NCBI GenBank assembly: GCA_903813345.2
Contig: CAIIXF020000012.1
Location: forward strand, 21,216,184 to 21,280,183
Length of the DNA stretch: 64,000 nucleotides
Source: Owenia fusiformis
Taxonomy: Eukaryota; Annelida; Polychaeta; Sabellida; Oweniidae
Reading direction: 5' to 3'
Part shown: positions 22,061 to 57,848 of the stretch, in pieces
Position numbering within the stretch: the stretch's first letter is position 1
Layout of the letters: each line of letters opens with the position of its first letter
Program-made: the position numbers and the translations under genes
The notes under the pieces: model-generated
Seen by the model: only the letters and a program-made list of their open reading frames with translations
Database searches by the model: none
Told to the model about the DNA's origin: nothing

Positions 22061-23938
22061 CATGCATGCTCCTAAGGTTACCTCTATACACTCTGTACTA
22101 GCGTACCTAGTGTATCTAGCGTAGCCACCGCATGCATGCGCCTAAGGTTACCTCTATACACTCTGTATCTAGCGCAGACACCGCATGCATGCTCCTTAGC
22201 TTACCTCTATACACTGTTGTAGCGTACCCAGTGTAGCTAGCGTAGCCACTGAATGCATGCTCCTAGGCTTACAACGAGACCCTTTGTAGCCGCTTAGTGG
22301 CTAGCAATGCCATCGAATGCCTGCTCCTAGGCTTACAACCAGACCCTGTGTAGCCGCGTAGCGAGTTTAGCTAGCGTAGCTACCGCATACATTATCCTAA
22401 GGTTACCTCTATACCCTCTCTAGCCGCGTAGCGAGTATAGCTAGCGCAACCACCGCATGCATGCTTCTTAGCTTACCTCTATACACTGTAGTAGCGTACC
22501 CAGTGTAACTAGCGTAGCCACTGAATGCATGCTCCTAGGCTTACAACCAGACCCTTTGTAGCCGCTTAGCCAGTGTGGCTAGCAAAGCCACCGAATGCCT
22601 GCTCCTAAGCTTACCTCCAGACCCTGTGTAGCCGCGTAGCGAGTTTAGCTAGCGTAGCTACCGCATACATTATCCTAAGGTTACCTCTATAACCTCTCTA
22701 GCCGCGTAGCAAGTATAGCTAGCGCAACCACCGCATGCATGCTCCTAGGGTTACCTCTATAAACTCTGTAGTAGCGTACCTAGTGTATCTAGCGTAGCCA
22801 CCGCATGAATGCTCCTTAGCTTACCTCTATACACTGTAGTAGCGTACCCAGTGTAGCTAGCGTAGCCACTGAATGCATGCTCCTAGGCTTACAACGAGAC
22901 CCTTTGTAGCCGCTTAGTGGCTAGCAATGCCATCGAATGCCTGCTCCTAAGCTTACCTCTTGACCCTGTGTAGCCGCGTAGCGAGTTTAGCTAGTGTAGC
23001 TACCGCATGCATGCTCCTAAGGTTACCTCTATACCCTCTCTAGCCGCGTAGCGAGTACAGCTAGCGCAACCACCGCATGCATGCTCCTAAGGTTACCTAT
23101 ATACACTCTGTACTAGCATACCTAGTGTATCTAGCGTAGCCACCGCATGCATGCTCCTAAGGTTACCTCTATACACTCTGTACTAGCGTACCTAGTGTAT
23201 CTAGCGTAGCCACCGCATGCATGCTCCTAAGGTTACCTCTATACACTCTGTACTAGCGTACCTAGTGTGTCTAGCGTAGCCACTGCATGCATGCTCCTTA
23301 GGTTACCTCTATACACTGTAGTAGCGTACCCAGTGTAACTAGCGTAGCCACTGAATGCATGCTCCTTTGCTTACAACCAGACCCTTTGTAGCCGCTTAGC
23401 CAGTGTGGCTAGCAAAGCCACCGAATGCCTGCTCCTAAGCTCTCCTCCAGACCCTGTGTAGCCGCGTAGCGAGTTTAGCTAGCGTAGCTACCGCATACAT
23501 TATCCTACCTCTATACCCTCTCTAGCCGCGTAGCGAGTATAGCTAGCGCAACCACCGCATGCATGCTCCTCTATACACTCTGTACTAGCGTACCTAGTGT
23601 ATCTAGCGTATCCATCGCATGCATGCTCCTTAGCTTACCTCTTTACCTTAATGTTCAACCTGGGGCCAAAATTCATTGGAAATCAGGCGTTTATTTTGCC
23701 CAGAACGCAAATTATATGCATATAAGAAAGACAAAATGTAAAATAAGTACATTTTCAGGTTTTTGTACTCATACACTGAGATTTGAACTTTTTCCTCTTT
23801 CACCTTTCGTTTTACCATATTTTGACGTTTTTATTGTCTTCCTTGAAAAAGTATATTGATTCCATATATATGAGCAAGTGTGTAATAGACCTTTATTAGA
23901 GAAAATATCAAAATGTAAAATATCTTTGCGAAATGTAT

Positions 23939-24021
23939 CACAGCCCGTTGGTGCAATGTTAAGCTATGTTGATCGCTTAAAACTCTCAATGTCATGGGTT
24001 CTATTCCTACTGTCCCCTATC
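23939..24021 (+). other. tRNA-like module 1 (A/B-box-like), representative copy
   Basis: The usual form is GGCCCGTTGGTGCAATGGTA, then about 40 bp, then GGGTTCGATTCCTAC, and then GTCCCC. These resemble a Pol III A box (TGGTGCAATGG) and B box (GGTTCGATTCC). This first copy is damaged (GGGTTCTATTCC and an insertion in the A-box side). Cleaner copies lie at 26821-26892 and 57777-57848 and in every unit. The anticodon arm does not fold well, so this is tRNA-derived sequence, not a tRNA gene. Confidence 0.65.
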
Positions 24022-24110
24022 TATAATTTTTTTGTGACATTTATTATGATATTATAAACTTCAAAATGCAAGAAATTTCTGTGTCTCATATGTCTGTTCA
24101 AGTTTAGCTT

Positions 24111-24166
24111 TGTGGCATCGTACTCGCTAACAATGGTAATGTTATGAGTTCAATTCATGGGAGGTT
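24111..24166 (+). other. tRNA-like module 2 (weak), representative copy
   Basis: Contains GTGGCATCGTACTCGCTAAC followed by AATGGTAATG and then GAGTTCAATTCATGGGAGG. The GAGTTCAATTC segment resembles a degenerate B box and the upstream part a poor A box. It lies about 150 bp after the B box of module 1 and recurs in each basic repeat, except the last unit near 60000, where it is deleted. Confidence 0.4.
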
Positions 24167-24245
24167 CTTTAGCATAGTATAACTTTTTGATTTTTGTACA
24201 GGACTATTAGGAAATGTAAAAATAGAATACATTCTTTAACAATAG

Positions 24246-24324
24246 GGCTTGGTCAAGATGGCCTAGTGGCCTTAGGCACTTGCTGGGGTCCCGAGATGCT
24301 ATGGGTTCGAAACTCTTCAGGGAG
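24246..24324 (+). other. tRNA-like module 3 (A box TGGCCTAGTGG, B box GGTTCGAAACT), representative copy
   Basis: GGTCAAGATGGCCTAGTGG matches the A-box pattern TRGCNNAGTGG very well, and GGGTTCGAAACTSTTCAGGG supplies a B-box-like GGTTCGAAAC about 45 bp later. The inter-box length fits a class II (Leu/Ser-like) tRNA ancestor. This is the best A-box match in the unit. It recurs in every basic repeat of both arrays. The 570-bp B insert lies shortly downstream of it. Confidence 0.65.
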
Positions 24325-24600
24325 TATTAAAAGACACACTTGTATTTTATTCTTTAATTCTCATGATTAATGAGTTTCATTGTGATATCACTTTCATTTT
24401 GATATAAGTTGCTAAAATATTTTACTTTACTGTCGAATTCCGCCAATTTTCGTTGGTGGTTGTGAAATAGATATGGTGTAACGAGCAAGATAATTCATTA
24501 TTTCAAGCCATTTATTAGATATTACGACAATTTTATCAAAATCAAGTATTTTCGGCCTATAAAAATCCAAATGTAAGATATCTTGGTGCCACGCATCATT

Positions 24601-24682
24601 GGCCTGTTGGCTCACTGGTATGTTGATGGCTTGAATTGCTCGAATATTTGCATATCATAGTCCTTAATGTTCAACCTGGGGA
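24601..24682 (+). other. tRNA-like module 4, paralogous to module 1
   Basis: The first half, GGCCTGTTGGCTCACTGGTA then TGTTGATGGCTTGAA, is a clear sister of module 1 (GGCCCGTTGGTGCAATGGTA then TGTTGATCGCTTAAA). The B-box position holds a degenerate TGTTCAACCTGGGG. The similarity suggests the ~1-kb basic repeat grew by internal duplication of a smaller tRNA-derived repeat. Confidence 0.6.
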
Positions 24683-24771
24683 CAAAATTCGTTGGAAATC
24701 AGGCGTTTATTTTGCCCAAAACGCAAATTATATGTATATAAGAAAGACAAAATGTAAAATCAGTACATTTT

Positions 24772-25678
24772 ACGTGTCGCAAAAAGGTCGCTCACGCATT
24801 GTTACACATTTTCGCTTTTTAACACCACAGAATGTGACGTTTTTTGAGAAAAATGTGCACATATGGAAATCCTTTCGTCCTCCACATTTGCCTCTATATC
24901 TCAAAATATTTAAGGCGAATAACTCTGATATCGTATGTATTAAAAATGGGATAGGAGCATCATAAAACACGAATCAATTGATATTTTAGTTGAAATACTG
25001 TAAATATACGTGTTGCTGTGCTTGAAAATAGGCGAATGGCGTAAATTAGCCCTATTTTAATGAATTTTGAAAACCTTTCGTCCTCCACTTTTCCACATAC
25101 AACAGAAAACACATACTTCTGCGAACAAAATCAACTATTCATTAATAAACTAGAGTTTAAGAGCAAAATCATCATGTATGATTTATTAAAAATTGATCTT
25201 GTTGTTTTTTTGTTCTTATTTTTTGTTTAATGTACACCTGAAAAGTTGAGGGTAACAAAAAATGAGCAAAAAAGGTCGCTGTCAACAGATTCTATTTTTC
25301 AAACTCTATGACGTCACAATAGGGGACGCTTACTAAAATTCAACCTTTGAAATAAAACTTCCATCTACCTTTATCAAGACGAAAAATAAGTATAATAGTC
25401 ATATATTGTTTGAGTAATGAGCGTTTAAAGACGAAAAATAATTCAAAATGTAACGTGTCAACAGGGGATATTTGCCAGATGTTTTGGTAAAAAACTCTTA
25501 TTTTAAAAAAGAACGCGCAGGAATCGTGAACGGAGTGTAATTGATCTAAAAACTTCATCGAAACAGCTTTAAAATGATATATAACTTTAATTAGAATATT
25601 ATCGTATAATCCGGGGAATCAAAGTTACATTCACGCGATACCCTCAAAAAACAAATGCGAGACCTTTTTGCGACACGT
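24772..25678. mobile_element. MITE with 18-bp perfect TIRs (ACGTGTCGCAAAAAGGTC), copy in A1
   Basis: The left end ACGTGTCGCAAAAAGGTC at 24772-24789 is matched by its exact complement at 25661-25678, giving a 907-bp AT-rich element. An internal GCAAAAAAGGTCGCT near 25265 repeats the terminal motif. Two blocks with CCTTTCGTCCTCCAC (near 24866 and 25077) form an internal repeat. A TGACGTCA site lies at 25309-25316. Basic repeats without the element read directly from CAGTACATTTT into CAACGGTTT, then ACACTGAGATTTGAAC, so the insertion interrupts the unit between modules 4 and 1, with a small loss of host sequence. No transposase frame is visible. Superfamily unassigned; no clear target-site duplication. 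Confidence 0.75.
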
Positions 25679-25775
25679 CACTGACATTTGAACTTTTTTC
25701 TCTTTCACCTTTCGTAAATTTACCATATTTTGACGTTTTTATTGTCTTCTTGAAAAAGTATATTGATTCCATATA

Positions 25776-26746
25776 CAGGGCGTCCACAAAAAAAGTATAC
25801 CCAACTTCAAAGCCAGGATACAAGAATTCTGAGCAATCTTTTAAAAATACGAAGGTAGCAGTAAAAGGGCTAGTTTGTCCTCCATCCAATGGAACATAGA
25901 TTATTGTGTAACTGCCATGGATTACTGAGCAATCATGACTTTTATGAAAGGTGTGAAAATTAGTACTGTGCCAAGTTAGCATTCAAGTAGGAATGACACA
26001 GTGAATGTTTTTTTGTGTTTAAAACATTATTAATGTTCAAATTCAAATTTGTTTCATGTTCTTCATACTTTTGCATAAATTTTAGTTGGTACCTCCCTCT
26101 CGAGAAATTGGATCTGAAGAGCCTCTTAATCAGCAATGAAACTTCTACTTGATAATATGCAGCTTTGAAGTCAATTGTATCCCCGTGTAAAGTCAATATC
26201 CCTTGCTGAAATCCTCATTTTCTCAGAAGATCTCAAGTTTATTGAGTTTAAACAAGTAGATCCATGTGGGTCAGTATTGCTAGATTCCATTTCAATAGTA
26301 AGAATAGGGGTTCTATACAAAGTACATGGGACTTACTTTTTAGAAATTTTTGTTGGCTCTATTGCTCAGGTGTCGGTTGAACCATTTTTGCAGGCCAATT
26401 TCCAGTAGGTTAAGCTTTTTGCCAAACCTTTTTTCTTAAGAGAGTTACTCAAGTCCAGTTCAGTATGGAAGGCCTGTCCTCTAACTTAATGTAACAGAAA
26501 AAGAATACTAAGCCAATTACACATCAATTGCCACACAGGGAGGTAACTTGGCATGGTGCTAATTTTACCACTTCTCACAATGGTCAAGATTGCTCGGTCA
26601 TACATGACAGTTACTTAATGATCTTGGTACCATTTGATGGAAAATAAGTTAGGCTTTTTACTACTACCTTTGTATTTTATAGAAACTGCCTAGGATTCTA
26701 GCAATTTGGATTTGAAGTTGGGTATACTTTTTTAGTGGACGCCCTG
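25776..26746. mobile_element. Mariner-type MITE (CAGGGCGTCC ends, TA duplication), copy in A1
   Basis: The left end TA|CAGGGCGTCC lies at 25774-25785 and the right end GGACGCCCTG|TA finishes at 26748. Long diverged inverted arms of ~200 bp share GTATACCCAACTTC at the left and GAAGTTGGGTATAC at the right. Length is 971 bp. The empty site is preserved at 23862, where GATTCCATATATATGAGC equals the flanks joined at one TA. CAGGG termini with TA duplication are typical of Tc1/mariner elements. No transposase remains: the 77-codon frame at 26175-26408 has no recognisable motif. Confidence 0.85.
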
Positions 26747-27304
26747 TATATGAGCAAGTGTGTAACAGACCTTTATTATAGAAAAGATCAAAATGTAAAA
26801 TATCTTTGAGAAAAGTATCACGGCCCGTTGGTGCAATGGTATGTTGATCGCTTAAAGTCCTCAATGTCATGGGTTCGATTCCTACTGTCCCCTATCTATA
26901 TTTTTGTGACATTTATTATGATATTTTAAACTTCAAAAGGCAAGAAATTTCTGTGTCTTGTATGTCTGTTCAAGTTTAGCTTTGTGGCATCTTACTCGCT
27001 CACAGTGGTAATGTCATGAGTTCAATTCATGGGAGGTCCTTAAGCATAGTATAACTTTTTGATTTTTGTAAAGGACTATAAGAAAATGTAAAAATCGAAT
27101 ACACTCTTTAACAATAAGGGCTTGGTCAAGATGGCCTAGTGGCCTTAGGCACTTGCTAGCGTCCCGTCATGCTGGGTTCGAAAATGTTCAGGGAGTATAA
27201 AAAGACACACTTGTATTTTATGCTTTTATTCTCATGATTAATGAGTTTCATTGTGATATCACTTTCATTTTGATATAAGTTGCTAAAATATTTTACTTTA
27301 CTGT

Positions 27305-28884
27305 CGAATTCCGCCAATTTTCGTTGGTGGTTGTGAAATAGGTATGGTGTAACGAGCAAGATAATTCATTATTTCAAGCCATTTATTAGATATTTCAAGT
27401 ATTTTCGGCCTAGGGAAAATCCAAATGTAAGATAAGTCTTGGTGCCATGTATCATTGGCCGGTTGGCTCACTGGTATGTTGATGGCTAGAATTGCTCGAA
27501 TATTTGCATTTCATAGTCCTTAATGTTCAACCTGGGGCCAAAATTCGTTGGAAATCAGGCGTTTATTTTGCCCAAAACGCAAATTATATGCATATAAGAA
27601 AGACAAAATGTAAAATCAATACATTTCAACGGTTTCTGCACTCATACACTGAGATTTTAACTTTTTCCGCTTTCAACTTTCGTAAATTTACCATATTTTG
27701 ACGTTTTTATTGTCTTCCTTGAAAAAGTATATTGATTCCTTATATACGAGCAAGTGTGTAATAGACCTTTATACAGGAAAAATATCAAAATGTAAAATAT
27801 CTTTGAGAAATGTATCACGGCCCGTTGGTGCAATGGTATGTTGATCGCTTAAAGCCCTCAATGTCATGGGTTCGATTCTTACTGTCCCCTATCTTTAATT
27901 ATTTTTTGTGACATTTATTATGATATTATAAACTTCAAAATGCAAGAAATTTCTGTGTCTCATATGTCTGTTCAAGTTTAGCTTTGTGGCATCGTACTCG
28001 CTAACAATGGTAATGTTATGAGTTCAATTCATGGGAGGTTCTTTAGCATAGTATAACTTTTTGATTTTTGTACAGGACTATTAGGAAATGTAAAAATCGA
28101 ATACATTCTTTAACAATAAGGGCTTGGTCAAGATGGCCTAGTGGCCTTAGGCACTTGCTGGGGTCCCGTGATGCTATGGGTTCGAAACTCTTCAGGGAGT
28201 ATTAAAAGACACACTTTTATTCCATGATGGTGAAATTCCCTGCAATCTGATTGGTCCACGTGACTTAAATATATTCTGTATTTACACGCACTTTCCAGTG
28301 TCAATGACGTCAGCGTTGGGATACGGTCCAGTATCCCAACGCCCCAGATTTCCATCCAGGATATGACTGGTACTGAAAAAATCAATGGCGATTACTTTAC
28401 ACCAACGCATGCTTATCTTTGGATTTTGCTATAAATATCTGATTCAAATATCAAAAACGTATACTGTGATCACCACAATCAATAATTTTAAGATAAAACA
28501 CGCAAACAAAAAGCAAACAACAAGGCCATAAAGATTTTGAAGGAATATCGATTAAAAATCTCTGAGGTGAGAAGGTTAATCTGTTCCTCCGGCCCCGAGC
28601 CAACGGATTTGATTTAGGCGAGTTTCATATGGGTAATCATGGAATAAAATCGTTATTCAATGATTTCTTGTGAAATACAGAAAATATTCTTCCCTTGAAC
28701 GTCTGTATTTCACTCTGCCAGCGCATCGTGAAATACGACCTTCTCGGGAAGAATATTTTCTGTATTTCACTCGAATCATTGAATAACTTATAGTATTTTA
28801 TTCTTTAATTCTCATGATTAATGAGTTTCATTGTGATATCACTTTCATTTTGATATAAGTTGCTAAAATATTTTACTTTACTGT
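27305..28884. repeat. Macrosatellite unit B1 (1580 bp)
   Basis: Basic repeat with modules 4, 1, 2 and 3 and a 570-bp insert after module 3. It lacks both A-form MITEs. Diagnostic B variants include CGGCCTAGGG and GGCCGGTTGG in module 4. Confidence 0.9.
28217..28786. mobile_element. 570-bp insert defining form B, with promoter-like motifs and hairpins (copy in B1)
   Basis: Basic repeats read ACACACTTGTATTTTATGC here; in B units the insert begins TTATTCCATGATGG and ends CATTGAATAA. The ends are weakly inverted (TTATTCMATGAT), and a possible 3-bp duplication CTT flanks them at 28214-28216 and 28787-28789. The left part contains ATTGG (inverted CCAAT, 28250-28254), CACGTG (28257-28262) and TGACGTCA (28305-28312). 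These are followed by a perfect 11-bp stem, CGTTGGGATAC with GTATCCCAACG, at 28314-28341. The right part holds a long imperfect hairpin (28653-28694 with 28746-28786). No coding similarity was seen. Probably a non-autonomous DNA element; class unknown. Confidence 0.65.
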
Positions 28885-29222
28885 CGAATTCCGCCAATTT
28901 TCGTTGGTGGTTGTGAAATAGATATGGTGTAACGAGCAAGATAATTCATTATTTCAAGCCATTTATTAGATATTACGACAATTTTATCAAAATCAAGTAT
29001 TTTCGGCCTATAAAAATCCAAATGTAAGATATCTTGGTGCCACGCATCATTGGCCTGTTGGCTCACTGGTATGTTGATGGCTTGAATTGCTCGAATATTT
29101 GCATATCATAGTCCTTAATGTTCAACCTGGGGACAAAATTCGTTGGAAATCAGGCGTTTATTTTGCCCAAAACGCAAATTATATGTATATAAGAAAGACA
29201 AAATGTAAAATCAGTACATTTT

Positions 29223-30129
29223 ACGTGTCGCAAAAAGGTCGCTCACGCATTGTTACACATTTTCGCTTTTTAACACCACAGAATGTGACGTTTTTTGAGA
29301 AAAATGTGCACATATGGAAATCCTTTCGTCCTCCACATTTGCCTCTATATCTCAAAATATTTAAGGCGAATAACTCTGATATCGTATGTATTAAAAATGG
29401 GATAGGAGCATCATAAAACACGAATCAATTGATATTTTAGTTGAAATACTGTAAATATACGTGTTGCTGTGCTTGAAAATAGGCGAATGGCGTAAATTAG
29501 CCCTATTTTAATGAATTTTGAAAACCTTTCGTCCTCCACTTTTCCACATACAACAGAAAACACATACTTCTGCGAACAAAATCAACTATTCATTAATAAA
29601 CTAGAGTTTAAGAGCAAAATAATCATGTATGATTTATTAAAAATTGATCTTGTTGTTTTTTTGTTCTTATTTTTTGTTTAATGTACACCTGAAAAGTTGA
29701 GGGTAACAAAAAATGAGCAAAAAAGGTCGCTGTCAACAGATTCTATTTTTCAAACTCTATGACGTCACAATAGGGGACGCTTACTAAAATTCAACCTTTG
29801 AAATAAAACTTCCATCTACCTTTATCAAGACGAAAAATAAGTATAATAGTCATATATTGTTTGAGTAATGAGCGTTTAAAGACGAAAAATAATTCAAAAT
29901 GTAACGTGTCAACAGGGGATATTTGCCAGATGTTTTGGTAAAAAACTCTTATTTTAAAAAAGAACGCGCAGGAATCGTGAACGGAGTGTAATTGATCTAA
30001 AAACTTCATCGAAACAGCTTTAAAATGATATATAACTTTAATTAGAATATTATCGTATAATCCGGGGAATCAAAGTTACATTCACGCGATACCCTCAAAA
30101 AACAAATGCGAGACCTTTTTGCGACACGT
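29223..30129. mobile_element. ACGTGTCGC MITE, copy in A2
   Basis: Same 18-bp TIRs and length as the copy at 24772-25678, shifted by 4451 bp. Amplified with the array rather than independently inserted. Confidence 0.75.
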
Positions 30130-30226
30130 CACTGACATTTGAACTTTTTTCTCTTTCACCTTTCGTAAATTTACCATATTTTGACGTTTTTATTGTCTTC
30201 TTGAAAAAGTATATTGATTCCATATA

Positions 30227-31197
30227 CAGGGCGTCCACAAAAAAAGTATACCCAACTTCAAAGCCAGGATACAAGAATTCTGAGCAATCTTTTAAAAATA
30301 CGAAGGTAGCAGTAAAAGGGCTAGTTTGTCCTCCATCCAATGGAACATAGATTATTGTGTAACTGCCATGGATTACTGAGCAATCATGACTTTTATGAAA
30401 GGTGTGAAAATTAGTACTGTGCCAAGTTAGCATTCAAGTAGGAATGACACAGTGAATGTTTTTTTGTGTTTAAAACATTATTAATGTTCAAATTCAAATT
30501 TGTTTCATGTTCTTCATACTTTTGCATAAATTTTAGTTGGTACCTCCCTCTCGAGAAATTGGATCTGAAGAGCCTCTTAATCAGCAATGAAACTTCTACT
30601 TGATAATATGCAGCTTTGAAGTCAATTGTATCCCCGTGTAAAGTCAATATCCCTTGCTGAAATCCTCATTTTCTCAGAAGATCTCAAGTTTATTGAGTTT
30701 AAACAAGTAGATCCATGTGGGTCAGTATTGCTAGATTCCATTTCAATAGTAAGAATAGGGGTTCTATACAAAGTACATGGGACTTACTTTTTAGAAATTT
30801 TTGTTGGCTCTATTGCTCAGGTGTCGGTTGAACCATTTTTGCAGGCCAATTTCCAGTAGGTTAAGCTTTTTGCCAAACCTTTTTTCTTAAGAGAGTTACT
30901 CAAGTCCAGTTCAGTATGGAAGGCCTGTCCTCTAACTTAATGTAACAGAAAAAGAATACTAAGCCAATTACACATCAATTGCCACACAGGGAGGTAACTT
31001 GGCATGGTGCTAATTTTACCACTTCTCACAATGGTCAAGATTGCTCGGTCATACATGACAGTTACTTAATGATCTTGGTACCATTTGATGGAAAATAAGT
31101 TAGGCTTTTTACTACTACCTTTGTATTTTATAGAAACTGCCTAGGATTCTAGCAATTTGGATTTGAAGTTGGGTATACTTTTTTAGTGGACGCCCTG
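30227..31197. mobile_element. Mariner-type MITE, copy in A2
   Basis: Identical position in the unit and intact CAGGGCGTCC ends with flanking TA, shifted 4451 bp from the A1 copy. Confidence 0.85.
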
Positions 31198-31755
31198 TAT
31201 ATGAGCAAGTGTGTAACAGACCTTTATTATAGAAAAGATCAAAATGTAAAATATCTTTGAGAAAAGTATCACGGCCCGTTGGTGCAATGGTATGTTGATC
31301 GCTTAAAGTCCTCAATGTCATGGGTTCGATTCCTACTGTCCCCTATCTATATTTTTGTGACATTTATTATGATATTTTAAACTTCAAAAGGCAAGAAATT
31401 TCTGTGTCTTGTATGTCTGTTCAAGTTTAGCTTTGTGGCATCTTACTCGCTCACAGTGGTAATGTCATGAGTTCAATTCATGGGAGGTCCTTAAGCATAG
31501 TATAACTTTTTGATTTTTGTAAAGGACTATAAGAAAATGTAAAAATCGAATACACTCTTTAACAATAAGGGCTTGGTCAAGATGGCCTAGTGGCCTTAGG
31601 CACTTGCTAGCGTCCCGTCATGCTGGGTTCGAAAATGTTCAGGGAGTATAAAAAGACACACTTGTATTTTATGCTTTTATTCTCATGATTAATGAGTTTC
31701 ATTGTGATATCACTTTCATTTTGATATAAGTTGCTAAAATATTTTACTTTACTGT

Positions 31756-33335
31756 CGAATTCCGCCAATTTTCGTTGGTGGTTGTGAAATAGGTATGGTG
31801 TAACGAGCAAGATAATTCATTATTTCAAGCCATTTATTAGATATTTCAAGTATTTTCGGCCTAGGGAAAATCCAAATGTAAGATAAGTCTTGGTGCCATG
31901 TATCATTGGCCGGTTGGCTCACTGGTATGTTGATGGCTAGAATTGCTCGAATATTTGCATTTCATAGTCCTTAATGTTCAACCTGGGGCCAAAATTCGTT
32001 GGAAATCAGGCGTTTATTTTGCCCAAAACGCAAATTATATGCATATAAGAAAGACAAAATGTAAAATCAATACATTTCAACGGTTTCTGCACTCATACAC
32101 TGAAATTTTAACTTTTTCCGCTTTCAACTTTCGTAAATTTACCATATTTTGACGTTTTTATTGTCTTCCTTGAAAAAGTATATTGATTCCTTATATACGA
32201 GCAAGTGTGTAATAGACCTTTATACAGGAACAATATCAAAATGTAAAATATCTTTGAGAAATGTATCACGGCCCGTTGGTGCAATGGTATGTTGATCGCT
32301 TAAAGCCCTCAATGTCATGGGTTCGATTCTTACTGTCCCCTATCTTTAATTATTTTTTGTGACATTTATTATGATATTATAAACTTCAAAATGCAAGAAA
32401 TTTCTGTGTCTCATATGTCTGTTCAAGTTTAGCTTTGTGGCATCGTACTCGCTAACAATGGTAATGTTATGAGTTCAATTCATGGGAGGTTCTTTAGCAT
32501 AGTATAACTTTTTGATTTTTGTACAGGACTATTAGGAAATGTAAAAATCGAATACATTCTTTAACAATAAGGGCTTGGTCAAGATGGCCTAGTGGCCTTA
32601 GGCACTTGCTGGGGTCCCGTGATGCTATGGGTTCGAAACTGTTCAGGGAGTATTAAAAGACACACTTTTATTCCATGATGGTGAAATTCCCTGCAATCTG
32701 ATTGGTCCACGTGACTTAAATATATTCTGTATTTACACGCACTTTCCAGTGTCAATGACGTCAGCGTTGGGATACGGTCCAGTATCCCAACGCCCCAGAT
32801 TTCCATCCAGGATATGACTGGTACTGAAAAAATCAATGGCGATTACTTTACACCAACGCATGCTTATCTTTGGATTTTGCTATAAATATCTGATTCAAAT
32901 ATCAAAAACGTATACTGTGATCACCACAATCAATAATTTTAAGATAAAACACGCAAACAAAAAGCAAACAACAAGGCCATAAAGATTTTGAAGGAATATC
33001 GATTAAAAATCTCTGAGGTGAGAAGGTTAATCTGTTCCTCCGGCCCCGAGCCAACGGATTTGATTTAGGCGAGTTTCATATGGGTAATCATGGAATAAAA
33101 TCGTTATTCAATGATTTCTTGTGAAATACAGAAAATATTCTTCCCTTGAACGTCTGTATTTCACTCTGCCAGCGCATCGTGAAATACGACCTTCTCGGGA
33201 AGAATATTTTCTGTATTTCACTCGAATCATTGAATAACTTATAGTATTTTATTCTTTAATTCTCATGATTAATGAGTTTCATTGTGATATCACTTTCATT
33301 TTGATATAAGTTGCTAAAATATTTTACTTTACTGT
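31756..33335. repeat. Macrosatellite unit B2 (1580 bp)
   Basis: Near-identical to B1 with isolated substitutions, for example CTGTTCAGGG in place of CTCTTCAGGG after module 3, and GAACAATATC in place of GAAAAATATC near 32228. Confidence 0.9.
32668..33237. mobile_element. 570-bp B insert, copy in B2
   Basis: Same ends, motif cluster and hairpins as at 28217-28786, offset 4451 bp. Confidence 0.65.
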
Positions 33336-33673
33336 CGAATTCCGCCAATTTTCGTTGGTGGTTGTGAAATAGATATGGTGTAACGAGCAAGATAATTCAT
33401 TATTTCAAGCCATTTATTAGATATTACGACAATTTTATCAAAATCAAGTATTTTCGGCCTATAAAAATCCAAATGTAAGATATCTTGGTGCCACGCATCA
33501 TTGGCCTGTTGGCTCACTGGTATGTTGATGGCTTGAATTGCTCGAATATTTGCATATCATAGTCCTTAATGTTCAACATGGGGACAAAATTCGTTGGAAA
33601 TCAGGCGTTTATTTTGCCCAAAACGCAAATTATATGTATATAAGAAAGACAAAATGTAAAATCAGTACATTTT

Positions 33674-34580
33674 ACGTGTCGCAAAAAGGTCGCTCACGCA
33701 TTGTTACACATTTTCGCTTTTTAACACCACAGAATGTGACGTTTTTTGAGAAAAATGTGCACATATGGAAATCCTTTCGTCCTCCACATTTGCCTCTATA
33801 TCTCAAAATATTTAAGGCGAATAACTCTGATATCGTATGTATTAAAAATGGGATAGGAGCATCATAAAACACGAATCAATTGATATTTTAGTTGAAATAC
33901 TGTAAATATACGTGTTGCTGTGCTTGAAAATAGGCGAATGGCGTAAATTAGCCCTATTTTAATGAATTTTGAAAACCTTTCGTCCTCCACTTTTCCACAT
34001 ACAACAGAAAACACATACTTCTGCGAACAAAATCAACTATTCATTAATAAACTAGAGTTTAAGAGCAAAATAATCATGTATGATTTATTAAAAATTGATC
34101 TTGTTGTTTTTTTGTTCTTATTTTTTGTTTAATGTACACCTGAAAAGTTGAGGGTAACAAAAAATGAGCAAAAAAGGTCGCTGTCAACAGATTCTATTTT
34201 TCAAACTCTATGACGTCACAATAGGGGACGCTTACTAAAATTCAACCTTTGAAATAAAACTTCCATCTACCTTTATCAAGACGAAAAATAAGTATAATAG
34301 TCATATATTGTTTGAGTAATGAGCGTTTAAAGACGAAAAATAATTCAAAATGTAACGTGTCAACAGGGGATATTTGCCAGATGTTTTGGTAAAAAACTCT
34401 TATTTTAAAAAAGAACGCGCAGGAATCGTGAACGGAGTGTAATTGATCTAAAAACTTCATCGAAACAGCTTTAAAATGATATATAACTTTAATTAGAATA
34501 TTATCGTATAATCCGGGGAATCAAAGTTACATTCACGCGATACCCTCAAAAAACAAATGCGAGACCTTTTTGCGACACGT
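33674..34580. mobile_element. ACGTGTCGC MITE, copy in A3
   Basis: Same 18-bp TIRs, offset 8902 bp from the A1 copy. Confidence 0.75.
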
Positions 34581-34677
34581 CACTGACATTTGAACTTTTT
34601 TCTCTTTCACCTTTCGTAAATTTACCATATTTTGACGTTTTTATTGTCTTCTTGAAAAAGTATATTGATTCCATATA

Positions 34678-35648
34678 CAGGGCGTCCACAAAAAAAGTAT
34701 ACCCAACTTCAAAGCCAGGATACAAGAATTCTGAGCAATCTTTTAAAAATACGAAGGTAGCAGTAAAAGGGCTAGTTTGTCCTTCATCCAATGGAACATA
34801 GATTATTGTGTAACTGCCATGGATTACTGAGCAATCATGACTTTTATGAAAGGTGTGAAAATTAGTACTGTGCCAAGTTAGCATTCAAGTAGGAATGACA
34901 CAGTGAATGTTTTTTTGTGTTTAAAACATTATTAATGTTCAAATTCAAATTTGTTTCATGTTCTTCATACTTTTGCATAAATTTTAGTTGGTACCTCCCT
35001 CTCGAGAAATTGGATCTGAAGAGCCTCTTAATCAGCAATGAAACTTCTACTTGATAATATGCAGCTTTGAAGTCAATTGTATCCCCGTGTAAAGTCAATA
35101 TCCCTTGCTGAAATCCTCATTTTCTCAGAAGATCTCAAGTTTATTGAGTTTAAACAAGTAGATCCATGTGGGTCAGTATTGCTAGATTCCATTTCAATAG
35201 TAAGAATAGGGGTTCTATACAAAGTACATGGGACTTACTTTTTAGAAATTTTTGTTGGCTCTATTGCTCAGGTGTCGGTTGAACCATTTTTGCAGGCCAA
35301 TTTCCAGTAGGTTAAGCTTTTTGCCAAACCTTTTTTCTTAAGAGAGTTACTCAAGTCCAGTTCAGTATGGAAGGCCTGTCCTCTAACTTAATGTAACAGA
35401 AAAAGAATACTAAGCCAATTACACATCAATTGCCACACAGGGAGGTAACTTGGCATGGTGCTAATTTTACCACTTCTCACAATGGTCAAGATTGCTCGGT
35501 CATACATGACAGTTACTTAATGATCTTGGTACCATTTGATGGAAAATAAGTTAGGCTTTTTACTACTACCTTTGTATTTTATAGAAACTGCCTAGGATTC
35601 TAGCAATTTGGATTTGAAGTTGGGTATACTTTTTTAGTGGACGCCCTG
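34678..35648. mobile_element. Mariner-type MITE, copy in A3
   Basis: Same CAGGG ends and TA flanks, offset 8902 bp from the A1 copy. Confidence 0.85.
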
Positions 35649-36206
35649 TATATGAGCAAGTGTGTAACAGACCTTTATTATAGAAAAGATCAAAATGTAA
35701 AATATCTTTGAGAAAAGTATCACGGCCCGTTGGTGCAATGGTATGTTGATCGCTTAAAGTCCTCAATGTCATGGGTTCGATTCCTACTGTCCCCTATCTA
35801 TATTTTTGTGACATTTATTATGATATTTTAAACTTCAAAAGGCAAGAAATTTCTGTGTCTTGTATGTCTGTTCAAGTTTAGCTTTGTGGCATCTTACTCG
35901 CTCACAGTGGTAATGTCATGAGTTCAATTCATGGGAGGTCCTTAAGCATAGTATAACTTTTTGATTTTTGTAAAGGACTATAAGAAAATGTAAAAATCGA
36001 ATACACTCTTTAACAATAAGGGCTTGGTCAAGATGGCCTAGTGGCCTTAGGCACTTGCTAGCGTCCCGTCATGCTGGGTTCGAAAATGTTCAGGGAGTAT
36101 AAAAAGACACACTTGTATTTTATGCTTTTATTCTCATGATTAATGAGTTTCATTGTGATATCACTTTCATTTTGATATAAGTTGCTAAAATATTTTACTT
36201 TACTGT

Positions 36207-37786
36207 CGAATTCCGCCAATTTTCGTTGGTGGTTGTGAAATAGGTATGGTGTAACGAGCAAGATAATTCATTATTTCAAGCCATTTATTAGATATTTCAA
36301 GTATTTTCGGCCTAGGGAAAATCCAAATGTAAGATAAGTCTTGGTGCCATGTATCATTGGCCGGTTGGCTCACTGGTATGTTGATGGCTAGAATTGCTCG
36401 AATATTTGCATTTCATAGTCCTTAATGTTCAACCCGGGGCCAAAATTCGTTGGAAATCAGGCGTTTATTTTGCCCAAAACGCAAATTATATGCATATAAG
36501 AAAGACAAAATGTAAAATCAATACATTTCAACGGTTTCTGCACTCATACACTGAGATTTTAACTTTTTCCGCTTTCAACTTTTGTAAATTTACCATATTT
36601 TGACGTTTTTATTGTCTTCCTTGAAAAAGTATATTGATTCCTTATATACGAGCAAGTGTGTAATAGACCTTTATACAGGAAAAATATCAAAATGTAAAAT
36701 ATCTTTGAGAAATGTATCACGGCCCGTTGGTGCAATGGTATGTTGATCGCTTAAAGCCCTCAATGTCATGGGTTCGATTCTTACTGTCCCCTATCTTTAA
36801 TTATTTTTTGTGACATTTATTATGATATTATAAACTTCAAAATGCAAGAAATTTCTGTGTCTCATATGTCTGTTCAAGTTTAGCTTTGTGGCATCGTACT
36901 CGCTAACAATGGTAATGTTATGAGTTCAATTCATGGGAGGTTCTTTAGCATAGTATAACTTTTTGATTTTTGTACAGGACTATTAGGAAATGTAAAAATC
37001 GAATACATTCTTTAACAATAAGGGCTTGGTCAAGATGGCCTAGTGGCCTTAGGCACTTGCTGGGGTCCCGTGATGCTATGGGTTCGAAACTCTTCAGGGA
37101 GTATTAAAAGACACACTTTTATTCCATGATGGTGAAATTCCCTGCAATCTGATTGGTCCACGTGACTTAAATATATTCTGTATTTACACGCACTTTCCAG
37201 TGTCAATGACGTCAGCGTTGGGATACGGTCCAGTATCCCAACGCCCCAGATTTCCATCCAGGATATGACTGGTACTGAAAAAATCAATGGCGATTACTTT
37301 ACACCAACGCATGCTTATCTTTGGATTTTGCTATAAATATCTGATTCAAATATCAAAAACGTATACTGTGATCACCACAATCAATAATTTTAAGATAAAA
37401 CACGCAAACAAAAAGCAAACAACAAGGCCATAAAGATTTTGAAGGAATATCGATTAAAAATCTCTGAGGTGAGAAGGTTAATCTGTTCCTCCGGCCCCGA
37501 GCCAACGGACTTGATTTAGGCGAGTTTCATATGGGTAATCATGGAATAAAATCGTTATTCAATGATTTCTTGTGAAATACAGAAAATATTCTTCCCTTGA
37601 ACGTCTGTATTTCACTCTGCCAGCGCATCGTGAAATACGACCTTCTCGGGAAGAATATTTTCTGTATTTCACTCGAATCATTGAATAACTTATAGTATTT
37701 TATTCTTTAATTCTCATGATTAATGAGTTTCATTGTGATATCACTTTCATTTTGATATAAGTTGCTAAAATATTTTACTTTACTGT
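36207..37786. repeat. Macrosatellite unit B3 (1580 bp)
   Basis: B form carrying the private changes CAACCCGGGG (near 36430) and CAACTTTTGTAAA (near 36576). It is followed immediately by another B instead of an A. Confidence 0.9.
37119..37688. mobile_element. 570-bp B insert, copy in B3
   Basis: Same ends and hairpins; differs from its siblings by single bases such as ACGGACTTG near 37505. Confidence 0.65.
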
Positions 37787-39366
37787 CGAATTCCGCCAAT
37801 TTTCGTTGGTGGTTGTGAAATAGGTATGGTGTAACGAGCAAGATAATTCATTATTTCAAGCCATTTATTAGATATTTCAAGTATTTTCGGCCTAGGGAAA
37901 ATCCAAATGTAAGATAAGTCTTGGTGCCATGTATCATTGGCCGGTTGGCTCACTGGTATGTTGATGGCTAGAATTGCTCGAATATTTGCATTTCATAGTC
38001 CTTAATGTTCAACCTGGGGCCAAAATTCGTTGGAAATCAGGCGTTTATTTTGCCCAAAACGCAAATTATATGCATATAAGAAAGACAAAATGTAAAATCA
38101 ATACATTTCAACGGTTTCTGCACTCATACACTGAGATTTTAACTTTTTCCGCTTTCAACTTTCGTAAATTTACCATATTTTGACGTTTTTATTGTCTTCC
38201 TTGAAAAAGTATATTGATTCCTTATATACGAGCAAGTGTGTAATAGACCTTTATACAGGAAAAATATCAAAATGTAAAATATCTTTGAGAAATGTATCAC
38301 GGCCCGTTGGTGCAATGGTATGTTGATCGCTTAAAGCCCTCAATGTCATGGGTTCGATTCTTACTGTCCCCTATCTTTAATTATTTTTTGTGACATTTAT
38401 TATGATATTATAAACTTCAAAATGCAAGAAATTTCTGTGTCTCATATGTCTGTTCAAGTTTAGCTTTGTGGCATCGTACTCGCTAACAATGGTAATGTTA
38501 TGAGTTCAATTCATGGGAGGTTCTTTAGCATAGTATAACTTTTTGATTTTTGTACAGGACTATTAGGAAATGTAAAAATCGAATACATTCTTTAACAATA
38601 AGGGCTTGGTCAAGATGGCCTAGTGGCCTTAGGCACTTGCTGGGGTCCCGTGATGCTATGGGTTCGAAACTCTTCAGGGAGTATTAAAAGACACACTTTT
38701 ATTCCATGATGGTGAAATTCCCTGCAATCTGATTGGTCCACGTGACTTAAATATATTCTGTATTTACACGCACTTTCCAGTGTCAATGACGTCAGCGTTG
38801 GGATACGGTCCAGTATCCCAACGCCCCAGATTTCCATCCAGGATATGACTGGTACTGAAAAAATCAATGGCGATTACTTTACACCAACGCATGCTTATCT
38901 TTGGATTTTGCTATAAATATCTGATTCAAATATCAAAAACGTATACTGTGATCACCACAATCAATAATTTTAAGATAAAACACGCAAACAAAAAGCAAAC
39001 AACAAGGCCATAAAGATTTTGAAGGAATATCGATTAAAAATCTCTGAGGTGAGAAGGTTAATCTGTTCCTCCGGCCCCGAGCCAACGGATTTGATTTAGG
39101 CGAGTTTCATATGGGTAATCATGGAATAAAATCGTTATTCAATGATTTCTTGTGAAATACAGAAAATATTCTTACCTTGAACGTCTGTATTTCACTCTGC
39201 CAGCGCATCGTGAAATACGACCTTCTCGGGAAGAATATTTTCTGTATTTCACTCGAATCATTGAATAACTTATAGTATTTTATTCTTTAATTCTCATGAT
39301 TAATGAGTTTCATTGTGATATCACTTTCATTTTGATATAAGTTGCTAAAATATTTTACTTTACTGT
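37787..39366. repeat. Macrosatellite unit B4 (1580 bp), extra B
   Basis: A second B directly after B3 breaks the A-B alternation. It lacks the private changes of B3, so a simple recent duplication of B3 itself is not the only explanation; unequal exchange with another B is possible. Confidence 0.9.
38699..39268. mobile_element. 570-bp B insert, copy in B4
   Basis: Same structure, 1580 bp after the B3 copy; one change, TTCTTACCTTG in place of TTCTTCCCTTG, weakens the right hairpin near 39174. Confidence 0.65.
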
Positions 39367-39706
39367 CGAATTCCGCCAATTTTCGTTGGTGGTTGTGAAA
39401 TAGATATGGTGTAACGAGCAAGATAATTCATTATTTCAAGCCATTTATTAGATATTACGACAATTTTATCAAAATCAAGTATTTTCGGCCTATAAAAAAT
39501 CCAAATGTGAGATATCTTGGTGCCACGCATCATTGGCCTGTTGGCTCACTGGTATGTTGATGGCTTGAATTGCTCGAATATTTGCATATCATAGTCCTTA
39601 ATGTTCAACCTGGGGACAAAATTCGTTGGAAATCAGGCGTTTATTTTGCCTAAAACGCAAATTATATGTATATAAGAAAGACAAAAATGTAAAATCAGTG
39701 CATTTT

Positions 39707-40612
39707 ACGTGTCGCAAAAAGGTCGCTCACGCATTGTTACACATTTTCGCTTTTTAACACCACAGAATGTGACGTTTTTTGAGAAAAATGTGCACATATG
39801 GAAATCCTTTCGTCCTCCACATTTGCCTCTATATCTCAAAATATTTAAGGCGAATAACTCTGATATCTTATGTATTAAAAATGGGATAGGAGCATCATAA
39901 AACACGAATCAATTGATATTTTAGTTGAAATACTGTAAATATACGTGTTGCTGTGCTTGAAAATAGGCGAATGGCGTAAATTAGCCCTATTTTAATGAAT
40001 TTTGAAAACCTTTCGTCCTCCACTTTTCCACATACAACAGAAAACACATACTTCTGCGAACAAAATCAACTATTCATTAATAAACTAGAGTTTAAGAGCA
40101 AAATAATCATGTATGATTTATTAAAAATTGATCTTGTTGTTTTTTTGTTCTTATTTTTTGTTTAATGTACACCTGAAAAGTTGAGGGTAACAAAAAATGA
40201 GCAAAAAGGTCGCTGTCAACAGATTCTATTTTTCAAACTCTATGACGTCACAATAGGGGACGCTTACTAAAATTCAACCTTTGAAATAAAACTTCCATCT
40301 ACCTTTATCAAGACGAAAAATAAGTATAATAGTCATATATTGTTTGAGTAATGAGCGTTTAAAGACGAAAAATAATTCAAAATGTAACGTGTCAACAGGG
40401 GATATTTGCCAGATGTTTTGGTAAAAACTCTTTTTTTTAAAAAAGAACGCGCAGGAATCGTGAACGGAGTGTAATTGATCTAAAAACTTCATCGAAACAG
40501 CTTTAAAATGATATATAACTTTAATTAGAATATTATCGTATTATCCGGGGAATCAAAGTTACATTCACGCGATACCCTCAAAAAACAAATGCGAGACCTT
40601 TTTGCGACACGT
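39707..40612. mobile_element. ACGTGTCGC MITE, copy in A4
   Basis: Both 18-bp termini are intact; internal small indels make it 906 bp, one base shorter than the others. Confidence 0.75.
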
Positions 40613-40709
40613 CACTGACATTTGAACTTTTTTCTCTTTCACCTTTCGTAAATTTACCATATTTTGACGTTTTTATTGTCTTCTTGAAAAAGTATATTGA
40701 TTCCATATA

Positions 40710-41676
40710 CCACCACAAAAAAAGTATACCCAACTTCAAAGCCAGGATACAAGAATTCTGAGCAATCTTTTAAAAATACGAAGGTAGCAGTAAAAGGGCT
40801 AGTTTGTCCTCCATCCAATGGAACATAGATTATTGTGTAACTGCCATGGATTACTGAGCAATCATGACTTTTATGAAAGGTGTGAAAATTAGTACTGTGC
40901 CAAGTTAGCATTCAAGTAGGAATGACACAGTGAATGTTATTTTTGTGTTTAAAACATTATTAATGTTCAAATTCAAATTTGTTTCATGTTCTTCATACTT
41001 TTGCATAAATTTTAGTTGGTACCTCCCTCTCGAGAAATTGGATCTGAAGAGCCTCTTAATCAGCAATGAAACTTCTACTTGATGATATGCAGCTTTGAAG
41101 TCAATTGTATCCCCGTGTAAAGTCAATATCCCTTTCTGAAATCCTCATTTTCTCAGAAGAACTCAAGTTTATTGAGTTTAAACAAGTAGATCCATGTGGG
41201 TCAGTATTGCTAGATTCCATTTCAATAGTAAGAATAGTGGTTCTATACAAAGTACACGGGACTTACTTTTTAGAAATTTTTGTTGGCTCTATTGCTCAGG
41301 TGTCGGTTGAACCATTTTTGCAGGCCAATTTCCAGTAGGTTAAGCTTTTTGCCAAACCTTTTTTCTTAAGAGAGTTACTCAAGTCCAGTTCAGTATGGAA
41401 GGCCTGTCCTCTAACTTAATGTAACAGAAAAAGAATACTAAGCCAATTACACATCAATTGCCACACAGGGAGGTAACTTGGCATGGTGCTAATTTTACCA
41501 CTTCTCACAATGGTCAAGATTGCTCGGTCATACATGACAGTTACTTAATGATCTTGGTACCATTTGATGGAAAATAAGTTAGGCTTTTTACTACTACCTT
41601 TGTATTTTATAGAAACTGCCTAGGATTCTAGCAATTTGGATTTGAAGTTGGGTATACTTTTTTAGTGGACGCCCTG
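40710..41676. mobile_element. Mariner-type MITE with broken left end, copy in A4
   Basis: The right end GGACGCCCTG|TA is intact. At the left, CAGGGCGTCCACAAAA is replaced by CCACCACAAAA, so the terminal ~5 bases are lost. Such a copy should not be mobile, yet it still shares the array position. Confidence 0.8.
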
Positions 41677-42234
41677 TATATGAGCAAGTGTGTAACAGAC
41701 CTTTATTATAGAAAAGATCAAAATGTAAAATATCTTTGAGAAAAGTATCACGGCCCGTTGGTGCAATGGTATGTTGATCGCTTAAAGTCCTCAATGTCAT
41801 GGGTTCGATTCCTACTGTCCCATATCTATATTTTTGTGACATTTATTATGATATTTTAAACTTCAAAAGGCAAGAAATTTCTGTCTCTTGTATGTCTGTT
41901 CAAGTTTAGCTTTGTAGCATCTTACTCGCTCACAATGGTAATGTCATGAGTTCAATTCATGGGAGGTCCTTAAGCATAGTATAACTTTTTGATTTTTCCA
42001 AAGGACTATAAGAAAATGTAAAAATCGAATACACTCTTTAACAATAAGGGCTTGGTCAAGATGGCCTAGTGGCCTTAGGCACTTGCTAGGGTCCCGTCAT
42101 GCTGGGTTCGAAAATGTTCAGGGAGTATAAAAAGACACACTTGTATTTTATGCTTTTATTCTCATGATTAATGAGTTTCATTGTGATATCACTTTCATTT
42201 TGATATAAGTTGCTAAAATATTTTACTTTATCGT

Positions 42235-43250
42235 CGAATTCCGCCAATTTTCGTTGGTGGTTGTGAAATAGATATGGTGTAACGAGCAAGATAATTCATT
42301 ATTTCAAGCCATTTATTAGATATTACGACAATTTTATCAAAATCAAGTATTTTCGGCCTATAAAAAATCCAAATGTGAGATATCTTGGTGCCACGCATCA
42401 TTGGCCTGTTGGCTCACTGGTATGATGATGGCTAGAATTGCTCGAATATTTGCATATCATAGTCCTTAATGTTCAACCTGGGGCCAAAATTCGTTGGAAA
42501 TCAGGCGTTTATTTTGCCCAAAACGCAAATTATATGCATATAAGAAAGACAAAATGTAAAATCAATACATTTTCAACGGTTTCTGCACTCATACACTGAG
42601 ATTTTAACTTTTTCCGCTTTCAACTTTCGTAAATTTACCATATTTTGACGTTTTTATTGTCTTCCTTGAAAAAGTATATTGATTCCTTATATACGAGCAA
42701 GTGTGTAATAGACCTTTATACAGGAAAAAGATCAAAATGTAAAATATCTTTGAGAAATGTATCACAGCCGTTGGTGCAATGGTATGTTGATCGCTTAAAG
42801 CCCTTAATATCATGGGTTCGATTCCTACTGTCCCCATCTATAATTATTTTTTGTGACATTTATTACGATATTATTAACTTCAAAATGCAAGAAATTTCTG
42901 TGTCTCATATGTCTGTTCAAGTTAAGTTTTGTGGCATCTTACTCGCTAACAATGGTAATGTCATGAGTTCAATTCATGGGAGGTTCTTAAGCATAGTATA
43001 GTTTTTTGATTTTTGTACAGTTCTATGAGGAAATGTAAAAATCGAATACATTCTTTAACAATAAGGGCTTGGTCAAAATGGCCTAGTGGCCTAAGGCACT
43101 TGCTAGGGTCCCGTGATGCTGGGTTCGAAACTGTTCAGGGAGTATTAAAAGACACACTTGTATTTTATGCTTTTATTCTCATGATTAATGAATTTCATTG
43201 TGATATCACTTTCATTTGGTATAAGTTTCTAAAATATTTTACTTTATTGT
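42235..43250. repeat. Insertion-free basic macrosatellite repeat (1016 bp)
   Basis: This unit carries modules 4, 1, 2 and 3 but none of the A or B insertions. Together with the second array at 57129-60325 it shows the ancestral organisation. More diverged from A and B than they are from each other, as expected at an array edge. Confidence 0.88.
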
Positions 43251-43421
43251 CGAATTCCGCCAATTTAATTAGATTATTATTACCTTAGATTATTGTGAAA
43301 TAGATGTGGTGTAACGAGCAAGTAAATTCATTATTTCAAGCCATTTATTAGATATTACGACAATTTTATCAAAATCAAGTATTTTCGGCCTAGGAAAAAT
43401 CCAAATGTAAGATATCTTGGT
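43251..43421. repeat. Terminal truncated macrosatellite repeat
   Basis: Begins with the CGAATTCC anchor, has an altered AATTAGATTATTATTACC stretch, and stops after AAATGTAAGATATCTTGG, just before module 4. Beyond this, the sequence is unrelated. Confidence 0.8.
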
Positions 43422-44386: not shown

Positions 44387-44901
44387 CACTGGTGATCCGC
44401 TCGATTACGCTGGTTACCGAAACGGTTCGTTTTTGGTAACAAAATGTTGGAGCGTCGAAGGTACGATTTTTCTTTTTTCCTTATTTCACGCGTTGTAGGC
44501 AGAATCCCATCGACATTTTTTCTCACAAACTAGTATCAACACCATATGTTTTAGAAAATGTACATGTTTGCGAAAAAAAAGGTCAGAAGACAACAGAATC
44601 GTCGATTTAATTCCTCACTTAAGTTACATAAACGGTTTGGGTTAAAAGTGCAGATCTTAACTGTTTTTCGAAAAAACTTTTATGTAACTTTAGTGAGGAA
44701 TTAGATATGGACGATTCTGTTGTCTTCTGAACTATTTATTCAAAAATATGTACATTTTCTTAAACATATGAAAAAATGTCGTGGAAATTCTGCCTACAAC
44801 GTGTGAAATAAGAAAAGAAAAATCGTACCTTCGATGTTCCGACATTTTGTTACAAAAACGAACCGTTTCGGTAACCAGCGTAATCGAGTGGCACACCAGT
44901 G
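44387..44901. mobile_element. Foldback element, 515 bp, flanked by TTATT
   Basis: Arms 44387-44633 and 44676-44901 are inverted copies. CACTGGTG plus CGATTACGCTGGTTACCG at the left pairs with CGGTAACCAGCGTAATCG plus CACCAGTG at the right. Near the loop, TTCCTCACTTAAGTTACATA pairs with TATGTAACTTTAGTGAGGAA. Arms are ~85-90% similar by eye with a ~42-bp loop. A direct TTATT lies at 44382-44386 and 44902-44906, a likely target duplication. The element is almost all inverted repeat and should form a very long hairpin as RNA or single-stranded DNA. Confidence 0.82.
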
Positions 44902-49370: not shown

Positions 49371-49590
49371 CAGGGTGTTTCATAACGAGCATCTCCAAAA
49401 AGTCAATTTGAGAAGAGATGGGTCTATATGTATGTACTATATATGAGCCTATTTTATTCTAGACAAACACATTTGGATCAACTAAACATGCTACAATTGA
49501 AGAAAGTACAAATGGCATCCCTTTGACTTTTATTTATTACAGTCCGAGAAGATCTTTCCTGACGAAAAGCCCACATTATGAAACACCTTG
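49371..49590. mobile_element. 220-bp TA-flanked MITE (CAGGGTGTTTCATAA ends)
   Basis: The left end CAGGGTGTTTCATAA follows TA at 49369-49370. The right end TTATGAAACACCTTG precedes TA at 49591-49592. The 15-bp termini differ at one base. No coding capacity. Tc1/mariner-type by terminus and target. Confidence 0.8.
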
Positions 49591-49599
49591 TATGTTTTC

Positions 49600-57776: not shown

Positions 57777-57848
57777 GGCCCGTTGGTGCAATGGTATGTT
57801 GATCGCTTAAAGCCCTCAATGTCATGGGTTCGATTCTTACTGTCCCCT
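57777..57848 (+). other. tRNA-like module 1, intact copy
   Basis: GGCCCGTTGGTGCAATGGTA leads to GGGTTCGATTCTTACTGTCC. Box spacing is normal for tRNA. The T-arm can pair partly, but acceptor and anticodon stems cannot, so a functional tRNA is unlikely. Confidence 0.6.

Follow-up and report, generated by a model that had tools for sequence, protein, structure and literature searches.

A low-copy tandem repeat of decayed tRNA-derived modules in the annelid Owenia fusiformis and its possible retention as a chain of B-box sites

The OAX repeat of Xenopus, also called satellite I, is transcribed by RNA polymerase III (Pol III). Together with PolIII/TAN, Rana/polIII and, questionably, Hy/polIII, it is described as a tandem repeat with tRNA-like sequence (PMC10702118). 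Here we analyse a 64-kb stretch of the Owenia fusiformis genome (hereafter the window; contig C12:21,216,184-21,280,183, in a host genome of 498 Mb and 525 contigs) that holds two tandem arrays of a unit built from tRNA-like modules. The units lie head to tail and carry a tRNA-derived segment, an arrangement of the OAX and PolIII/TAN kind. Judged by description, the repeat is a multi-module variant of the tRNA-containing tandem repeats of amphibians, a likeness of kind and not of descent.

Both OAX and the Owenia repeat have a long tandem unit with a tRNA-derived segment, central in OAX, but OAX as described has one such segment per unit, whereas the Owenia unit has two recognisable isotypes and further modules and is present at low copy on one contig (PMC10702118). 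PolIII/TAN of Cynops, Rana/polIII and Hy/polIII are likewise tandem repeats discussed as tRNA-related, although their units are ~200-360 nt long with one tRNA-like stretch as described (PMC10702118). Rana/polIII is 64% identical to a tRNA over 64 nt, close to the 40/60 of the Owenia module M1 introduced below, and differs in abundance, making up as much as 10% of some genomes (PMC10702118). The satellites that squamates derived from short interspersed elements (SINEs) also consist of tandem parts of tRNA-headed elements, and the snake unit includes box B; however, their units span ~70-290 nt and come from dispersed SINE families, whereas the pattern search reported below found no dispersed family here (PMC10702118). 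None of these amphibian or squamate repeats, as described in that source, has several isotypes per unit (PMC10702118), and in the literature covered (titles and abstract openings, mostly without subscription papers) we recognised no repeat with several modules of different isotype per unit.

Two further kinds of system are relevant. Neighbouring or tandem tRNA genes occur in the tandem arrays of Entamoeba, in clusters of zebrafish and Nematostella, and in the SYY cluster of Arabidopsis (PMC2888827; PMC12308677); as described, these clusters include genes taken as intact, whereas no module here reached the tRNA cut-off. TFIIIC has a high affinity for B boxes, and extra-TFIIIC (ETC) sites are described as B-box motifs bound by TFIIIC without Pol III that serve as chromatin barriers and insulators (PMC12409998). 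They resemble the Owenia modules in keeping a B box without tRNA function (PMC12409998), but the putative sites reported here lie in a tandem array and are accompanied by A-box-like sequence and T runs.

The arrays, the unit, its modules and the related copies elsewhere on C12 are as follows (positions are those of the window unless C12 is named).

23646-43421, plus strand: array 1, ~ten basic units of ~1 kb (self-BLAST, module anchors)
57133-60322, plus strand: array 2, ~three basic units related to those of array 1 (self-BLAST, unit alignment)
57217-58299, plus strand: reference basic unit, the source of all unit coordinates
57777-57849, plus strand: M1, tRNA-Pro-like, with A box TGGTGCAATGG and B box GGTTCGATTC; 13 window copies
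57928-58001, plus strand: M2, weak, with B-box-like GAGTTCAATTC; 12 window copies
58084-58156, plus strand: M3, tRNA-Leu-like, with A box TGGCCTAGTGG and B box GGTTCGAAAC; 13 window copies
57411-57466, plus strand: M4, partial copy of M1 with the A box only; in the window arrays and fragment D (C12 21.196 Mb)
C12 19.82 Mb: cluster C
C12 20.34-20.37 Mb: cluster B, with head-to-head inverted units
C12 21.197 Mb: fragments D

The initial annotation of this DNA had described one tandem array whose ~1-kb repeat is a chain of four tRNA-like modules, two of them strong. Self-BLAST and module anchors confirm that array and its ends at 23,646-43,421, and the ~1-kb period is evident from M1 and M3, each of which occurs ten times in array 1 and three times in array 2. 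The two strong modules, M1 and M3, are found at the motifs it had given and are clearly tRNA-like. The count of four holds only in part, with M2 weak and M4 a partial copy that lacks a B box.

M1 (tRNA-Pro) and M3 (tRNA-Leu) are derived from tRNA beyond chance. M1 is identical to tRNA-Pro at 40 of 60 gapless columns (score 40), and M3 scores 50 against tRNA-Leu(CAA); neither score was reached by any of 300 dinucleotide shuffles or any of 158 background stretches of the window. When both strands of the unit were scanned in 100-base windows, M1 and M3 formed the only two peaks; the next best value was 28, and the highest score among 538 background windows was 33. Of the 23 reference tRNAs in these comparisons, the letters of tRNA-Pro recur as host genes on contig C6. 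M3 is assigned to tRNA-Leu and to no single isoacceptor, the host tRNA-Leu(CAA) genes resembling the reference sequence and apparently bearing an intron. Among unique copies from the three clusters that carry the anchors used, the best match is Pro for 18 of 18 M1 and Leu for 27 of 27 M3.

The other two modules behave differently. Against the 23 tRNAs, M2 in the window is no more tRNA-like than its shuffles: the scores of its six unique window copies were reached by 69, 6, 3, 27, 25 and 6 of 100 shuffles. Of 21 unique copies of M2, 14 are best matched by tRNA-eMet, and 0-69 of 100 shuffles reach the score. M4, which has no B box, does not exceed shuffles when taken alone (18 and 98 of 300). 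The suspected paralogy of M1 and M4 is confirmed by a local alignment score of 72, whereas 12 shuffled units, examined on a coarser grid, reached at most 41. The duplication also takes in ~43 bp of sequence that precedes the tRNA-like start.

We compared A/B-box pairs in one unit with those in 300 dinucleotide shuffles. At most one mismatch in each box leaves one pair, in M1, and at most one A-box and two B-box mismatches leave two pairs, in M1 and M3; no shuffle did as well in either case. With at most two mismatches in each box there are three pairs, again in M1 and M3, matched by 3 of 300 shuffles. The two A-box and three B-box mismatches needed for M2 give four pairs and are not significant (43/300). 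Enrichment over shuffled sequence, a check that the initial annotation had named, is thus seen for M1 and M3 and fails for M2. At two mismatches per box, array 1 has 33 pairs on the plus strand versus 6 on the minus strand, and array 2 has 10 versus 2. Of 92 B boxes, 91 are followed within 60 nt by a run of at least four T, compared with a background of 50%. The type-2 layout of Pol III genes (A and B boxes at an allowed spacing, followed by a T run) is present in M1 and M3 and absent from M2 and M4. An AATGTA-like motif upstream of the modules is not significantly conserved, since 7, 14 and 32% of placements are as low.

No sequence in the window reaches the Rfam cut-off for tRNA, and therefore no intact cloverleaf survives in the modules. 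Even at E values up to 10, the covariance-model hit that had been proposed as a second check did not appear for the Rfam tRNA family, either in 23600-64000 or in a single unit; the parts of the window searched at E up to 10 gave just unrelated sub-threshold matches. ARAGORN at default settings reports no tRNA in the window. A functional tRNA gene cluster should contain a cloverleaf above the family cut-off, and none was found in the window or in clusters B-D, where the lone sub-threshold tRNA match lies outside the modules. Our own tRNA models score M1 at 15.7 bits with structure and 19.8 bits without, a gap that just hints at lost structure because the effective sequence number is not the same in both; the adjoining 70-bp satellite, described below, scores up to 11.5 bits with the structured model. 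Many cloverleaf pairs, which were not tallied singly, are marked as broken in the tRNA-model alignments, and the predicted consensus structures contain no compensatory change in 15 pairs over 22 M1 copies or in 22 pairs over 22 M3 copies. A relaxed ARAGORN run (80% setting) was dropped after it called 41 tRNAs in the 70-bp satellite versus 14 and 4 in arrays 1 and 2. A separate tRNA-like element lies near the left edge of that satellite (L024:1916-1981, minus strand) and scores 27.3 bits with our model and 20.6 with Rfam (cut-off 29).

We measured mean pairwise diversity over the core shared by the three clusters (reference 401-1042, covered by a median of 26 copies per column). It is 0.084 for the core, 0.026 (about a third) for the three B boxes and 0.040 for all six boxes; among 10,000 random draws, 0.30% and 0.43% of windows, respectively, were as low, and none of 641 circular shifts was as low for either set. 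With exact box limits the values are 0.026 and 0.046, and in each case 2 of 641 shifts are as low. No significant conservation is seen for the A boxes by themselves (0.067; 170/641), and comparison of the two results therefore places the constraint on the B boxes. Among the six boxes, diversity is lowest in the B-box-like stretch of M2 (0.013). When each box is taken by itself, just two give values below 5%, the B boxes of M2 (1.4%) and M3 (3.9%). The intervals between A and B boxes are not conserved (M1 0.082, M2 0.150, M3 0.103), and the same is true of whole modules (0.081). When any one cluster is omitted, 0 to 6 of 641 shifts are as low; cluster B alone gives 8/641 for six boxes and 30/641 for B boxes, and cluster C gives 23 and 37. 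Within the window only, the M1 and M3 boxes vary at 3 of 44 columns compared with 259 of 1,079 overall, and 2.1% of placements are as low. This pattern fits selection on TFIIIC binding better than selection on an RNA, and TFIIIC binding, transcription and insulation are plausible activities of these sequences.

We propose, with a probability of about one in two, that this tandem repeat, low in copy number and locally amplified, arose from a decayed tRNA-gene cluster and has been retained as a string of B-box (TFIIIC) sites. The ancestor would have been a small cluster comprising a tRNA-Pro gene, a second gene that is now unrecognisable, and a tRNA-Leu gene. Patterns for the true host tRNA-Pro and tRNA-Leu(CAA) have 49 and 12 matches, all on other contigs and several in tandem. 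In support of such an origin, a tandem host array of tRNA-Pro genes exists at C6:543.8-545.8 kb, where many genes are ~162-165 bp apart and some are apparently damaged. At C2:4.338-4.340 Mb, tandem tRNA-Leu(CAA) genes, apparently interrupted by an intron, are ~181 bp apart. The copies would have lost their tRNA structure; their B boxes would have been retained, and beside them lie A-box-like sequence and, downstream, a T run. Each unit may thereby represent a chain of three putative TFIIIC landing sites, which might act with TFIIIC only or might start short Pol III transcripts of roughly 90-110 nt by position. The units would have spread by unequal exchange and by duplication of segments, in part inverted, and presumably not by retrotransposition.

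Several results weigh against this proposal. The T runs stem from just three module lineages. Taken singly, the M1 B box reaches 21% and the A boxes 18-48%. The effect is weak in the window's own copies (140/641 for six boxes, 75/641 for B boxes), and the window-only comparison rises to 10 of 79 columns and 5.9% of placements when M2 and the M4 A box are included. Differences between cluster consensuses fall in the M1 and M3 boxes at 1 of 44 columns versus 3.6 expected, which is not significant (20% of placements as low). Some box-free stretches are equally conserved, for example reference 461-480 (0.013), and neither the circular shifts nor the copies are independent of one another.

The chief rival is that the locus is a neutral, decaying tRNA-gene cluster, a pseudogene array without a present role, whose B-box conservation reflects chance or recent common descent. 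Few copies in one region, a broken cloverleaf and inserts left in place are what such an array would show, and the unconserved A boxes (170/641), the weak signal among window copies, the non-significant consensus test (1/44 vs 3.6) and the barely tRNA-like M2 all agree with it. However, neutral decay does not readily account for B-box diversity at about a third of the core, which is matched by only 2 to 5 of 641 shifts if duplicates or low-identity rows are kept and by 2 to 6 of 641 if any one cluster is omitted, whereas the A-B intervals are not low. We consider neutral decay quite possible.

A more specific role can be imagined for the retained sites. The arrays may form a TFIIIC boundary in which B boxes are kept while tRNA bodies decay, and in which bound TFIIIC would delimit the chromatin of the 70-bp satellite. 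This satellite block covers ~41.9 kb (C12:21,197,943-21,239,830; window part 1-23645), has a GC content of 51% and nested periods of 140, 208 and 278 bp, and is flanked by minus-strand tRNA-like unit fragments on the left and by array 1, in the opposite orientation, on the right. A boundary function of this kind seems doubtful.

The initial annotation had viewed the array as a megabase-style repeat made of tRNA-derived SINEs. The two arrays extend over only 19.8 kb and 3.2 kb, and close copies of the repeat are confined to one region. Allowing up to three mismatches across the 498-Mb genome, all 30 matches to the M1 pattern and all 30 to the M3 pattern lie on C12:19.82-21.28 Mb (1.45 Mb), and the reversed-pattern control gave none; older copies with more than three mismatches are invisible to this search. 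A DNA search of the genome with one unit gave at least 84 matches, those listed all being on C12 at 19.82-21.28 Mb. An RF00005 search of the genome scored 63 of 33,560 candidates and is no tRNA census, and one scan of viral contigs with a 27-base M3 pattern found no match. On the pattern matches at up to three mismatches, the repeat is neither a recently dispersed SINE nor a megabase satellite.

Tandem amplification of a captured tRNA-headed SINE is accordingly an unlikely origin. Heads with A and B boxes and no cloverleaf are SINE-like, and SINE-derived satellites exist in squamates (PMC10702118). Genome-wide dispersal of M1 and M3, which a SINE should show, is absent at up to three mismatches, and each unit combines two isotypes. 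Moreover, the M1/M4 duplication holds 5′ flank, which speaks against a SINE because an RNA copy would start near the tRNA 5′ end without it. Very unlikely is a conserved structured noncoding RNA encoded by the modules: the M1 consensus is unchanged over 91 columns across three clusters (the longest run; 1.5% of random placements), but compensatory changes number 0/15 pairs in M1 and 0/22 in M3, and individual M1 copies vary like the core (42 of 73 columns variable vs 36.6 expected).

The related clusters also bear on how the unit was assembled. Clusters B and C, 0.9-1.4 Mb away, have ~1-kb units with M1-M2-M3 and other sequence in the M4 position (reference 141-220), with a mismatch of 50-70% in the cluster consensuses; for this reason M4 looks late. 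Direct alignment was made for one cluster-B unit, to which the final unit of array 2 is similar at the M4 position. The original form was probably a ~1-kb unit of three modules, into which a copy of M1 with ~43 bp of 5′ flank was probably inserted later as M4. Growth from a single tRNA-derived ancestor of 160-250 bp, as suggested by the initial annotation, is disfavoured because M1 and M3 represent two isotypes, Pro and Leu, and M4 was seemingly added with its flank. Two other features of these clusters were observed. Head-to-head inverted units of cluster B meet within a few bases at C12:20348847/20348853 and 20370423/20370427 (L022, L023), and clusters B and C have extra diverged M3-like stretches that are ~75% identical to reference 799-965 (L019, L021, L022, L023; e.g., L022:3466-3620).

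Array 1 has a higher-order organisation about which the initial annotation was silent, as it was about array 2. The array consists of 4,451-bp repeats, each copy with two basic units and three inserts. These copies are 99.2-99.5% identical to one another and 97.7% identical to the last copy, and basic units diverge from each other by ~6-13% (all by self-BLAST). Unit junctions of array 2 show a duplication of ~40 bp, and M4 is absent from its final unit. The remaining features are the following.

24342-28792, plus strand: higher-order repeat copy of 4,451 bp (self-BLAST; two M1 per period)
28793-33243 and 33244-37694, plus strand: further higher-order copies
37695-39274, plus strand: short higher-order variant of 1,580 bp
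from 39275, plus strand: higher-order copy, more diverged
24772-25678, no strand assigned: insert 1, in every higher-order copy; inverted termini ACGTGTCGCAAAAAGG / CCTTTTTGCGACACGT; ends by eye
25776-26746, no strand assigned: insert 2; inverted termini CAGGGCGTCC / GGACGCCCTG adjoining TA, arms 78.6% identical; ends by eye
28222-28792, no strand assigned: insert 3, lacking a clear terminal repeat; ends deduced from where unit homology is interrupted
60299-60400, plus strand: right end of array 2, similar to the M4-less cluster-B unit (alignment)

Insert 2 looks like a nonautonomous element of the Tc1/mariner type. Elsewhere in the window, palindromic inverted repeats of ~515 and ~396 bp at 44387-44901 and 49440-49835 are probably foldback elements, and a palindromic stretch at 63127-63288 (minus strand), with a sub-threshold MIR812 match of 42.7 bits (cut-off 80), is likely another. 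A 515-aa open frame at 53081-54628 (minus strand) is of the Ty3/Gypsy retrotransposon type, with integrase domains in its matches. The best 120 of its 212 matches are 33-58% identical, the named ones come mainly from marine invertebrates, and those named near the top are from a sea cucumber and bivalves (43-49% identity).

The proposal that this repeat is kept as a chain of B-box sites is built on the tRNA likeness of M1 and M3, the confinement of their close copies, the lost cloverleaf and the low B-box diversity. Should selection act on the B boxes but not on the tRNA bodies, the array would be a natural example of a protein-binding site that has been retained where the RNA has not. With ~30 copies per main module, in clusters of differing divergence, the locus would suit a clean test of the routes by which tRNA genes become chromatin sites or satellites.

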